A stretch of 32,057 bases of DNA from assembly GCA_003551905.1 (NCBI GenBank), contig PUNT01000084.1:1-32057 (forward strand), written 5' to 3'. This document shows, in pieces, positions 5,452 through 27,806 of the stretch. Within the stretch, counting starts at the first letter, position 1. Every line of letters begins with the position of its first letter. The DNA comes from Halanaerobiales bacterium (lineage in GTDB: Bacteria; Bacillota; Halanaerobiia; B1SED10-174). The translations under genes and the position numbers were made by a program. The notes below the pieces were generated by a model. The model saw only the letters and a program-made list of their open reading frames with translations, ran no database searches and was not told the DNA's origin.

Positions 5452-6765
5452 TTACCCCAGCTTTTCTTTTATAATTTCATCCAGTGTAGGCTCACCAATT
5501 TCCTGCAATTCATAGCGGACCCGTACTGCCGGTTTATCTATCTTCACCAGTCGCCTGAGGTCAATGGGGGTTCCAATAACTACAACATCTGCATCTACTC
5601 TCTTAATGGTTTCCTCCAGCTCGTCCATCTGCTTGCGACCGTACCCCATGGCAGGAAGAACATTGGAAAGATGATCATAAGTTTTGAAAATATCCAGCAG
5701 GCTACCAACAGCATATGGCCGCGGATCAATGAGCTCGCTGGCTCCATATTTCCGGGCCGCAATGGCTCCTGCTCCATAGGCCATATTGCCGTGAGTCAGT
5801 GTAGGTCCATCCTCCACTACCAGCACTCTTTTGCCATTTAACATGTGGGAATCATCAACAAAAATAGGTGAGGCAGCATCCACCACCTGGGCTTCTGGAT
5901 TAGCAATGCGAATATTAAGGCGTACCCTCTCCACGTTCTCCGGATAGCTGGTTTCAATCTTGTTGATTATGAGAACATGAGCCATGCGAAAATTTGTTTC
6001 GCCGGGATGGTAAAGAAGTTCATGTCCAGGGCGGTGGGGATCAACCAGCACTATATGTAAATCAGGCCGGAAAAATGGCAGATCATTATTTCCCCCATCC
6101 CAGAGGATCACATCAGCCTCTTCTTCAGCCCTCTTAAGTATCTCTTCATAATCCACGCCAGCATAAACCACAAAACCACGCTCGATATGGGGCTCGTACT
6201 CTTCCCTCTCTTCAATGGTGCAGTTATGTTTATCCATATCTTCATGGGTTGCAAAGCGCTGCCAGACTTGCTTTTCCAGATCTCCATAGGGCATGGGATG
6301 CCGAATAACTACCAGCTTTTTACCCATCTCCTGGATTACTTCAGCAACTCGCCTGGTGGTCTGACTCTTGCCTACGCCGGTTCTAACAGCACAAACAGAT
6401 ACAATAGGCACCCTGGCATTAAGCATGGTGGTATTGGGTCCCATGAGCCGGAAATCAGCACCTGCTGTCAGGGCCACAGAAGCCCGATTCATAACATATT
6501 CATGGGAAACATCACTGTAAGCAAAGACAACCTGATCCACCTCTTTCTCCTTGATGAGGCTTTCCAGGTCTTTTTCGTCATAGATAGGAATCCCGTCCGG
6601 ATAAAGGGACCCACTGAGGCTGGCTGGATATTTTCTGCCGTGAATATCCGGAATCTGAGTAGCGGTAAATGCTACCACTTCATAATCCTCATTATCCCGA
6701 AAATAATTGTTAAAGTTGTGAAAATCTCGACCTGCTGCTCCCATTATTATTACTCTCTGTTTCAA
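5452..6765 (-). CDS. COG2403 predicted GTPase / cyclic 2,3-diphosphoglycerate synthetase-like protein
   Basis: KQRVIIMGAAGRDFHNFNNYFRDNEDYEVVAFTATQIPDIHGRKYP, CAVRTGVGKSQTTRRV nucleotide-binding loop, VRHPMPYGDLEKQ, ILWDGGNNDLPFF, DPHRPGHE. Start is TTG at 6765 preceded by AGGAGG-N9; the ORF-track start at 6888 lies inside the upstream gene. Confidence 0.88.
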   Translation of the reverse strand: MKQRVIIMGAAGRDFHNFNNYFRDNEDYEVVAFTATQIPDIHGRKYPASLSGSLYPDGIPIYDEKDLESLIKEKEVDQVVFAYSDVSHEYVMNRASVALTAGADFRLMGPNTTMLNARVPIVSVCAVRTGVGKSQTTRRVAEVIQEMGKKLVVIRHPMPYGDLEKQVWQRFATHEDMDKHNCTIEEREEYEPHIERGFVVYAGVDYEEILKRAEEEADVILWDGGNNDLPFFRPDLHIVLVDPHRPGHELLYHPGETNFRMAHVLIINKIETSYPENVERVRLNIRIANPEAQVVDAASPIFVDDSHMLNGKRVLVVEDGPTLTHGNMAYGAGAIAARKYGASELIDPRPYAVGSLLDIFKTYDHLSNVLPAMGYGRKQMDELEETIKRVDADVVVIGTPIDLRRLVKIDKPAVRVRYELQEIGEPTLDEIIKEKLG

Positions 6766-6770
6766 TACTA

Positions 6771-7757
6771 TCAACCTCCTGAATTTGTTATAGGAATTGA
6801 ATGCCCGCAAGACGGGCATTCCCTGCCATGAATATCTATAGAAATCCTGGGAAATCTCCGGACTATAGTGTGGCCACATGATGGGCATCTGGTTGTGCTG
6901 TATTCTGCATCGTGAACATTTCCCAGGTAGACGTAGGGAAGATGATCCCGGGCAACCTGATACAGTTCCATCATAGCTTTCAGAGATACTGGAGGGTGTG
7001 TGTATTTATAGGCTGGGAAATACCGGGAAAGGTGCAGGGGAGTATCCTCCCCCAGATTATCCCTTATCCAACGAGCCTCCTCACCTATCTCTTCTGGATC
7101 ATCATTTATGCCGGGAACTATAAGGGTAGTTATTTCCAGGTGACAATGATTGTTGAATAATTCTGCACTGTGGAGAATTGTAGTTAAATTACCCCTGCAG
7201 TGCTTTTCATAGGAGTTATTGCGGAAAGCCTTCAAATCCAGGTTAACTGCATCCACAAATGGCAAAATTCTTTTCAAGGGTCGGGAATTTATAAATCCGT
7301 TGGTTACCAAAATCATTTTCAAACCCTGGTCTTGGGCTTCTGGCATTATTTCTTCTAAAGTTTCGTACCACATTAAAGGTTCAGCATAGGTAAAGGCAAT
7401 ACCAACACTTCCCTCCCTGCGCCCCAGGGAAATGAGTTCTTCTGCGCTAACTTCCCAGGCCGGTGAATGACCCCGGGCCAGGGACCAGTTCTGGCAAAAA
7501 CCACATTCTAGATTGCAGCCAGGAGAACCTACAGAAAATATTATGCTACCCGGATAAAAGTGGTACAGGGGTTTTTTTTCTATGGGATCTATAGCCCAGG
7601 CCCCAACTTGCAGATAATTCAACGCTATAATCTTATTATCCCTGTTCTGACGCACCCCACAAAGACCTTTCTCGCCAGGAGTCAAACGACAGACATGGGG
7701 ACATAAGAGGCACTGCATCCCTTCTCCTACCGGTCGGGCAAAACTTACCTCGCGCAA
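6771..7757 (-). CDS. AmmeMemoRadiSam system radical SAM enzyme
   Basis: Radical SAM CxxxCxxC (CNLECGFC), N-terminal Cys cluster (CLLCPHVCRLTPGEKGLCGVR), C-terminal CPSCG...CPSCG. TTG start with an AAGGAGG RBS. Confidence 0.92.
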   Translation of the reverse strand: MREVSFARPVGEGMQCLLCPHVCRLTPGEKGLCGVRQNRDNKIIALNYLQVGAWAIDPIEKKPLYHFYPGSIIFSVGSPGCNLECGFCQNWSLARGHSPAWEVSAEELISLGRREGSVGIAFTYAEPLMWYETLEEIMPEAQDQGLKMILVTNGFINSRPLKRILPFVDAVNLDLKAFRNNSYEKHCRGNLTTILHSAELFNNHCHLEITTLIVPGINDDPEEIGEEARWIRDNLGEDTPLHLSRYFPAYKYTHPPVSLKAMMELYQVARDHLPYVYLGNVHDAEYSTTRCPSCGHTIVRRFPRISIDIHGRECPSCGHSIPITNSGG

Positions 7758-7777: not shown

Positions 7778-9127
7778 CTATTCACTGTACCTGTCCACCT
7801 GAAAACGCTTGATCTTTTCCCCGGTGCCAGCTTCAATACCGGCTTTCATCCGGGCAATTGTTAACTGTTCTTCAACAGAATTGACTCCGGGGAGAGCAGG
7901 CAGGAGCACCCCTTTTCTGGCTCCTTTCTCCACTATTACCCCAAATCGTTCATGATCCAGTTCTCCCAAAGAGCTCACTTCCCGGGGAGGATGAAGTATA
8001 TCCACAGAGAACTTGAGTTCCGGCAATTCTTCCAGTCTTACCGGCGAAAAGCGGGGATCTTCAGTGGCTGATTGTATGGCATTGCTTATGATTTCCTCGG
8101 CCAGGGATGGTTTAGTAGCCATTATGGTACCTATACAACCCCGGAGTTCTCCACTTTCAGTCTTGATGGATACGAAGGAGCCAGCTGGTTCCTGCAAATA
8201 TCCTGGCAGGTTTGCATCTGGAGTTAAAAGCTTCCCCTCCTTGAGGAAGGTTTCCACTGCCTGCCGGGCCAGTTCTACTGGCTTAGAATCCTCTTGAAGA
8301 TTACCCTCCTGTATATGAAAAAGGGCCACCCCATAACCAACACCAAAAGGGCCTTCATAGGAAAGAACTCTGGGAGTAAAACCCTGACCTTCCAGGATTC
8401 CCGCCAGTATTATCAATGGCCGAAGCCCGCACTCTCCTGCTTTTTCCACCAGAGAGTCCTCAAGCTCCATTAACTCCTTGAGGTTACCTTTTTTGAGTAT
8501 TCCCATTACTCTATCATCAAATTCCTTCCCCCGGGGGCTGAAACCGGCCGGTGCGCTGGGTGTAAGGCGGTGGGAAAGATCGCCACTGGCAATTATTCCT
8601 ACCTTTTTGGGGTACTCCTCCAGCACTCTGCCCAGAAGACTACCAAAGGCAAATAACTCTTCATATTCCAGAAGGCCCATGTTAACAGGCAAAAGGGGAA
8701 CATCAAGGCCTTCTTCCTGCAAATAGTACAGGGGAACCATTACACCATGATCCAAAACCGGCTGAATCCGATATTTTCTGGCCTCCTGCTCATCCAGAAG
8801 TTTCAAAGAAAATCCTTCTTTCCTGGCTTCCTCATGGATAATTCTCACCAGCTCATCTTCCCGGGAGGCAGAAAACGTCACCTCTTCTGCCCCGAAAGAA
8901 GCCAGGGAGCCTTTCAAGCTGGAAAAATTTAAAATATTCAGGGTATCGGAAAACACCGGTCCGTGGGGGCTTATGGTAAGAATAACCTCAATTTCCTGCT
9001 TCTGGAACTCCCTGGCCATCTCTTCCATGGCTTTTCTCGTAGACTCAATTCTGTGCAGGTCTCTGCCCCCTATCTCAGGAATCAAAAGAGGCGGATGAGG
9101 GGCCAGGCCGGCAAGCGCAATTCCCAT
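7778..9127 (-). CDS. AmmeMemoRadiSam protein: Memo-like class III extradiol dioxygenase domain fused to AMMECR1 domain
   Basis: Residues about 1-272: MGIALAGLAPHPPLLIPEIGG, ISPHGPVFSD, LDHGVMVPLYY, IASGDLSHRL. Residues about 281-449: AMMECR1 domain with ELRGCIGT and PRFSPVRLEELPELKFSVDIL. AGGAGG RBS. Confidence 0.92.
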   Translation of the reverse strand: MGIALAGLAPHPPLLIPEIGGRDLHRIESTRKAMEEMAREFQKQEIEVILTISPHGPVFSDTLNILNFSSLKGSLASFGAEEVTFSASREDELVRIIHEEARKEGFSLKLLDEQEARKYRIQPVLDHGVMVPLYYLQEEGLDVPLLPVNMGLLEYEELFAFGSLLGRVLEEYPKKVGIIASGDLSHRLTPSAPAGFSPRGKEFDDRVMGILKKGNLKELMELEDSLVEKAGECGLRPLIILAGILEGQGFTPRVLSYEGPFGVGYGVALFHIQEGNLQEDSKPVELARQAVETFLKEGKLLTPDANLPGYLQEPAGSFVSIKTESGELRGCIGTIMATKPSLAEEIISNAIQSATEDPRFSPVRLEELPELKFSVDILHPPREVSSLGELDHERFGVIVEKGARKGVLLPALPGVNSVEEQLTIARMKAGIEAGTGEKIKRFQVDRYSE

Positions 9128-19758: not shown

Positions 19759-20052
19759 CTATCGGACCTCCTTACTGTTAGCTTCCTCCAGCACCTTCTT
19801 CAGGGCACCAGCCACATCTTTATTGCTAACTCGCATTTTGGACCTGCATTTCACATGGATGTCTTCAATAACAGTATTGAGGGGCTGCAAGTGTTTAATA
19901 TTCTTTCTTTTGGGACTTTCAACTCTCCGCCTGCAACCATCAGCAATATATACAAAGGGGTCAGGCCCTATCTGCAGAACCACAAAATATTCCCCCTTAT
20001 CTCTTCCAGCAATAGACTTGACAACCTGGCCTAACTCCAGATTGCTGGCCAT
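19759..20052 (-). CDS. KOW-domain RNA-binding protein, ribosomal protein L14e/L6e/L27e-like (COG2163-type)
   Basis: [55 protein letters not shown]-type core, located between map and infA. Confidence 0.85.
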
Positions 20053-26232: not shown

Positions 26233-26601
26233 CTAGAGCACTTCCGGTGCCAGGGATATTATCTTCATAAAATTCTTTTCCCGCAATTCCCGAGCCACAG
26301 GGCCAAAAATCCGCGTTCCCCTTGGATTATTGGTACGATCAATTATAACAGCAGCATTTTCATCAAAAGCAATATAAGAGCCATCGGGGCGGCGAAATTC
26401 TTTCTTGGTCCTGACAATAACTGCTTTAACTATCTCACCTTTTTTAACCACCCCACCGGGAATAGCTTCTTTTACTGTAGCCACGATAATATCTCCAGCC
26501 CGGGCATACCGCTTCTTGGATCCTCCCAGGACATTTATACATAGCAGTTCTCGAGCGCCGGTGTTATCAGCCACCCGGACCCTGCTTTCTGTCTGAATCA
26601 T
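26233..26601 (-). CDS. rplN: 50S ribosomal protein L14
   Basis: [46 protein letters not shown]. Confidence 0.98.
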
Positions 26602-26887: not shown

Positions 26888-26901
26888 ACCCCCGCCTCCT
26901 T

Positions 26902-27159
26902 TCAGTTACACCTTTTTTCCGGACGACCAATAAGTTTTTGTCCATCTATTTCTCCTAGAAACTCCCCATTGTGGTAGATCTGGAAGGTGCAAACTCCTTT
27001 CGGTACCATTTTCCGCTTGCCATTGGTCATGATTACCAGAACATTCATCCGGTCTTCAATAACTTCTCCCCCAAGACCCAGATAGGTTCCTCCTGTCACC
27101 TTGCTGATCTTTATCCTTTTACCTACAAGAGGGGTCCTGATCAGTTCATTATTAGCCAT
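26902..27159 (-). CDS. Archaeal/eukaryotic-type RNase P protein Rpp29 (Rnp1/Pop4)-like, minimal form
   Basis: 85 aa: [85 protein letters not shown]. The order of short motifs (E-L-I...L-V-G-K...[14 protein letters not shown]...K.VPK...F.I...G....I-D-G..L.G-R-P-E-K-R) matches the Rpp29 Sm-like core as I recall it. Lies between rpmC and rpsQ, 27 nt after the rpmC stop and 14 nt before the rpsQ start, with a GGGGG/AGG-type RBS upstream. Confidence 0.82.
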
Positions 27160-27186
27160 TGAGGAAACCCCCTTTTTAGAACATAA

Positions 27187-27381
27187 TTATGCTCCCAATT
27201 CCCTTTTCCTTATCACTGTCTTTACCCTGGCAATATCTCGACGTACTTCCCTGAGACGCAGGGGATTATCCAGCTGTGCTGTAGCATGCTGGAATCGCAG
27301 GTTAAAAAGATCCTCTTTCAAATCCCTGAGCTTAACCTGTAGCTCTTCACTGGTCATATCATAATATTTTTTTGCTTTCAT
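27187..27381 (-). CDS. rpmC: 50S ribosomal protein L29
   Basis: [61 protein letters not shown]. Confidence 0.98.
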
Positions 27382-27806
27382 TGCTGTCCACCCTCTCCTT
27401 CTTCCCGGGTGACGAATTTTGTTTTGATGGGCAATTTATGGCTGGCCAGCCGCATGGCTTCCCGGGCTATCTCAGGGGTAACCCCGGTGAGCTCGAACAT
27501 TATACGTCCTGGCTTGACAACAGCCACCCAGAATTCTGGGGCCCCTTTACCGCTTCCCATCCTTGTTTCAGCAGGTTTGGCGGTAACCGGTTTGTCAGGA
27601 AATATCTTGATCCAAACTTTACCGCCTCGCTTGATATGCCTGGTCATGGCTATCCGGGCGGCTTCAATCTGCCGGTTGGTAATCCAGGCAGGTTCTAGTG
27701 CCATCAAACCATATTCACCAAACTCCAGGGTATTGCCCCGGGTGGCTATACCACGCATCCGGCCTCGCTGCTGTTTTCTGTACTTGACGCGCTTGGGCAT
27801 CAACAT
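27378..27806 (-). CDS. rplP: 50S ribosomal protein L16
   Basis: [66 protein letters not shown]. Confidence 0.98.

Follow-up and report, generated by a model that had tools for sequence, protein, structure and literature searches.

An archaeal-type Rpp29 homologue in the S10 operon of a bacterium that encodes RnpA and class-A RnpB

An 85-amino acid protein, encoded in the S10 ribosomal protein operon of a Halanaerobiales bacterium, is with near certainty a bona fide homologue of the RNase P protein Rpp29 (Rnp1/Pop4). Taken as a whole, the observations are best explained by a single gain of an archaeal-type Rpp29, which would have been kept without its partners and would serve as an RNase P cofactor (with a probability of about 0.55). 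What is new is that a known tRNA-processing protein family, otherwise reported only from archaea and eukaryotes, is present, here without its partners, in bacteria, from which it has been reported absent. The bacterial operon has been described as lacking RPP29 (PMC4919917) and a survey did not find archaeal RNase P proteins in bacteria (PMC6380272), an absence contradicted by this one well-supported clade of salt-loving soda-lake bacteria. In the literature covered, which leaves aside the majority of subscription journals and resources of the InterPro kind, no description of a bacterial Rpp29 was found. The clade provides a natural test of the transition of RNase P from one protein to several, and of the capacity of Rpp29 to act in the absence of Rpp21 and Rpp30. 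It also raises the question of how a gene of foreign origin reached an identical slot in an operon that ranks among the most conserved known to biology.

The window (the whole stretch of DNA analysed, 32,057 nucleotides) contains a bacterial S10/spc ribosomal operon on its minus strand, in the order ... rplP-rpmC-(rpp29-like ORF)-rpsQ-rplN-rplX-rplE .... The original prediction placed an intact 85-residue reading frame with its own ribosome-binding site between rpmC and rpsQ, and its coordinates, start, stop and SD-like sequence are all confirmed. The frame is located 27 nt past rpmC and 14 nt ahead of rpsQ, among the following features:

27378..27806, minus strand: rplP (L16), bacterial S10 operon
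27187..27381, minus strand: rpmC (L29), bacterial-type, upstream neighbour
27168..27174, minus strand: SD-like AAGGGGG of the rpp29-like gene, ahead of the ATG
26902..27159, minus strand: rpp29-like gene (PF01868), 85 aa, Sm-like barrel, ATG start, TGA stop
26895..26902, minus strand: SD of rpsQ (AAAGGAGG), overlapping the rpp29 stop codon
26633..26887, minus strand: rpsQ (S17), bacterial-type, downstream neighbour
26233..26601, minus strand: rplN (L14)

In a profile search, the S17 next to the rpp29-like gene scores 116 bits with uS17_bact versus 45 bits with uS17_arch. Because the neighbours are bacterial-type, no archaeal operon block accompanied the gene.

The protein matches the Pfam profile RNase_P-MRP_p29 (PF01868) with 54.5 bits (E=1.2e-14; the curated cut-off is 27 bits) over profile positions 2-83 of 84, and the same profile is matched by all six members of the family. 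With such a match, and with conservation under purifying selection in six of six family genomes, the reading frame is well outside what chance would give. In a phmmer search against the PDB, all hits with E < 0.01 are Rpp29, both archaeal structures and human Rpp29, while a profile made from the six family sequences matches eight distinct PDB sequences, each of them Rpp29. The AlphaFold2 model (pLDDT 80) is predicted to contain seven strands and a short helix, arranged as an Rpp29-type Sm-like beta-barrel. When this model is compared with the PDB using Foldseek, the matches ranked 1 to 14 are all Rpp29/Pop4, with 6AHR and 6AGB among the matches; Spt5 KOW domains, Hfq and any ribosomal protein rank behind Rpp29, Hfq and Spt5 at E 0.04 and above. 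The original reading of the sequence as an Rpp29 pattern, and not as a chance Sm-like fold, is thus upheld by profile and by fold. The NCBIfam equivalogs for archaeal Rnp1 are matched below their cut-offs (NF046110 with 46.3 versus 90 bits, NF003020 with 33.4 versus 154 bits), which makes the protein a divergent member of PF01868. Homology is shown, and functional equivalence to archaeal Rnp1 does not follow from it. Identity to archaeal Rpp29, for which PDB sequences are the only ones compared, is around 30-37%, versus 46-58% when archaeal orders are compared among themselves.

Comparison with archaeal Rpp29/Rnp1 (P. furiosus, PDB entry 2KI7; M. thermautotrophicus MTH11, 1OQK; M. jannaschii, 6K0A) reveals homology over the full length of the core, with the Sm-like barrel common to both; the operon neighbourhood, the conserved glycines, the equivalents of K91 and F96 and a GRPE.R C-terminal motif are also shared. 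When residues are mapped onto P. furiosus Rpp29 via the phmmer alignment, the core residues G13, G28, G31, V33, D36-K54, F59 and G73 are kept, the E73-K91 core salt bridge corresponding to D36-K54 and F96 to F59. The GX4ET motif and the KX(n)F arrangement (K91/F96 in P. furiosus) are near-universal (PMC4919917). In the window copy the former is present as GX4DR (G31...D36-R37), with the acidic residue kept as aspartate, K54 and F59 kept, and the threonine, T74, a proposed RNA-contact residue, replaced by R37. Residues H46 and E47 of P. furiosus Rpp29 form salt bridges to Rpp21 (PMC4919917); their equivalents are T9 and P10 in the window copy and T/I/V-P in the family, with P10 invariant. The C-terminal tail of archaeal Rpp29, which docks into Rpp30 (PMC6565675), is missing, and the bacterial protein ends one residue past the aligned core. 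The protein has therefore kept the barrel and part of the RNA face, with both protein-protein faces lost, matching the missing partners. Human and yeast Rpp29/Pop4 contain a homologous barrel domain, but unlike these the 85-aa protein has no N-terminal extension and no nuclear partners. The net charge of the family proteins is +2 to +6.

The RNase P background of the host is bacterial, unlike that of archaeal Rpp29. A genome search for rnpA, rnpB, Rpp21, Pop5 and Rpp30, as suggested in the original prediction, finds the first two and none of the three archaeal partners. RnpA is encoded at C170 (PF00825, 92.9 bits), with its conserved basic motif VVRNRIKRR intact, and the class-A rnpB is matched across the full model (RF00010, 311.9 bits). 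Profile searches for Rpp21, Rpp30 and Pop5 give nothing above cut-off in any of the six family genomes; a weak Rpr2 (Rpp21-model) match in G000 was discarded, the ORFs of that region reading as a glycosyltransferase and a protease. Because the contact sites for Rpp21 and Rpp30 are lost and Rpp21, Rpp30 and Pop5 are absent, the 85-aa protein cannot belong to an archaeal-type holoenzyme. RnpA (C5) is encoded separately and differs from it in fold and family, although a role as RnpB cofactor may be shared by both. Comparison of the family rnpB with that of sister families yields only five columns specific to the family, and part of these match the Rfam consensus for bacteria in general, so no clear sign of rnpB co-adaptation is apparent. 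Second, partial class-A rnpB matches are present in two family genomes, at G003:C90:3229-3456 and G004:C113:3229-3416, perhaps due to strain mixing in the metagenome-assembled genomes (MAGs). HARP, the protein-only RNase P of Aquifex and archaea, is likewise RNase P machinery common to archaea and bacteria. However, HARP is a PIN nuclease able to replace the RNP, whereas here a non-catalytic RNP subunit is found beside a complete bacterial RNP.

Of the possible functions, that of a second protein cofactor for bacterial RNase P is preferred, at about even odds in our estimation. In the mechanism we propose, the family ancestor would have gained Rpp29 once, keeping it in the archaeal slot ahead of S17 in the S10 operon. 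As a small basic Sm-like barrel, the protein would work without archaeal partners, as Rpp21, Rpp30 and Pop5 are absent and the Rpp21 and Rpp30 contacts are eroded. It would bind the class-A RNase P RNA and/or pre-tRNA beside RnpA. By bridging the C and S domains or stabilising them, it might improve fidelity or the affinity for substrate, perhaps under high-salt conditions. That a lone Rpp29 might act on class-A RnpB is biochemically plausible by analogy, because the human protein binds M1 RNA of bacteria and increases M1 pre-tRNA cleavage in vitro (reviewed in PMC8509007) and archaeal Rpp21-Rpp29 binds the S domain and raises substrate affinity (PMC6565675, PMC4919917). Human Rpp29 has also been described to bridge the C and S domains (PMC8509007). 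With somewhat less confidence, falling just short of even odds, the enzyme may be considered a natural hybrid RNase P, made up of RnpB and RnpA with a recruited archaeal subunit as partner-free cofactor, and, jointly with this, an intermediate form linking the bacterial enzyme, with its one protein, to the archaeal enzyme, with its several. Against a role in RNase P stand the change of T74 to R37, the lack of clear rnpB co-adaptation, the missed equivalog cut-offs and the low identity to archaeal proteins; expression from a ribosomal operon would also probably exceed RNase P levels.

The main rival to the RNase P cofactor, although on balance unlikely, is a role linked to the ribosome, in which the Sm-like barrel would have been repurposed after capture by the S10 operon as a ribosomal protein, assembly factor or rRNA chaperone, co-expressed with L29 and S17. 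The tight packing of the operon, with its overlapping signals, is consistent with such a role, as are the arginine at position 37 and the fact that the interfaces to archaeal RNase P proteins are both lost. Purifying selection is clear (dN/dS is around 0.05-0.12 within genus g2, somewhat higher than for the neighbouring ribosomal protein genes, while dS is saturated between the two genera) and fits a ribosomal role too, and a further small protein encoded in the same operon weakly resembles archaeal L14e. However, the archaeal orthologue, an RNase P subunit, has its gene in this operon as well, so location does not discriminate between the two. Rpp29 has published activity on the RNase P RNA of bacteria, which speaks for RNase P, and no ribosomal protein is seen to be missing from the family alone.

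A general RNA chaperone or regulator of the Hfq or Rof kind, for instance one binding the S10-operon mRNA and unrelated to RNase P, is considerably less probable. The basic Sm-like barrel would suit it, and Hfq and Spt5 KOW domains do occur in the Foldseek list, but far behind Rpp29; the top matches by sequence and by structure are all Rpp29, and Rof, Hfq and Sm-like proteins resemble the protein in general barrel fold, without a sequence match. A 4-bp stem covering the SD of the rpp29-like gene (window 27160-27177) might point to regulation and is kept at the same place in L002-L006. It is formed by GGGG-loop-CCCC or CCUC, both genera keeping the stem while the loop varies. Its strength is not above that of shuffled sequence; the hairpin was therefore rejected and is no more than a lead toward low or regulated translation.

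Returning to the RNase P cofactor and its proposed single gain, PF01868 occurs once in this genome, and the six family genomes, which belong to two genera, all contain an 85-aa copy, always between rpmC and rpsQ. The named counterparts come from a scan of genome contigs for close relatives, the sole one of our searches to reach into other bacterial phyla. All are MAGs, classified in their records as Halobacteroidaceae or Bacillota, and their sample codes are B1Sed10, T1Sed10 and CSSed16; codes in this style appear in a study of hypersaline soda-lake sediment (PMC6146748). Outside the family, the 53 remaining genomes of the class contain no PF01868 match and, save for one sub-threshold match, neither does the remainder of a 399-genome set of relatives, while the family's own profile finds nothing in 399 genomes sampled evenly from the phylum. 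Wider spread in Bacillota was rejected: the match at G272/L014 (24 bits, below the cut-off) contains stops, has no S10 genes at its locus and is attributed to chance. No relatives carried by viruses, phages or plasmids were found, and a scan of viral contigs with archaeal Rpp29 was also empty. The gap between L29 and S17, measured from the L29 stop to the first matched S17 residue, is 17-66 nt in 51 sister loci of the class versus about 303 nt in the family, in keeping with the expectation that bacterial operons normally have no gene here. The location of rnp1, in many archaea, between the L29 and S17 genes of the ribosomal operon, also put forward in the original prediction, agrees with published work, in which the archaeal operon also contains an eIF gene (PMC4919917).

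The rpp29-like gene has a GC content of 0.44, and both GC and GC3 resemble those of neighbouring genes; as, in addition, the copies of the two genera are 61-71% identical when compared with the window copy, the gain is not a recent one. A single acquisition of an archaeal-type Rpp29 in the family ancestor is the simplest history. The gene was very probably gained by transfer, with an archaeon as the presumed donor. The original prediction had left the choice between an ancient relic and an in-place transfer; a single gain is favoured and a relic is much less likely, because the gene occurs in just one family, itself nested in a class otherwise without it. As a relic, Rpp29 would already have belonged to the S10 operon when bacteria and archaea last shared an ancestor and would have survived only here, which we consider very improbable. 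The slot identical to the archaeal one, the bacterial-type flanking genes and a bacterial-archaeal identity below that between archaeal orders would all agree with it, but every other bacterial lineage sampled, all sister families of the class among them, would need to have lost the gene, and the published survey found no such protein in bacteria (PMC6380272). Contaminating archaeal DNA or a chimeric assembly is rejected with practical certainty, even though all named relatives are MAGs, since the gene occupies the same slot of bacterial operons in six genomes, two genera and several metagenomes, in diverged copies with a neighbour-like GC content.

Several other features of the window were observed. 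The gene for L30 (rpmD) is absent from its usual slot between rpsE and rplO (window 23224/23225 junction). The gap between the S5 and L15 matches is 10-52 nt, and rpmD is missing there in every sister genome of the class that was checked, which is a class-wide loss or relocation; loss of L30 was for this reason rejected as an explanation for the recruitment of rpp29. Downstream of map, a small protein (window 19759-20052, minus strand) matches the NCBIfam model of archaeal 50S L14e weakly, with 31.5 bits versus a cut-off of 87. This archaeal-looking protein of the same ribosomal operon is probably a feature shared with other Firmicutes. At window 5452-6888 (minus strand), a 478-aa protein without Pfam or NCBIfam match is encoded, adjoining a radical SAM protein (6771-7757) and an AMMECR1- and LigB-domain protein (7778-9127).
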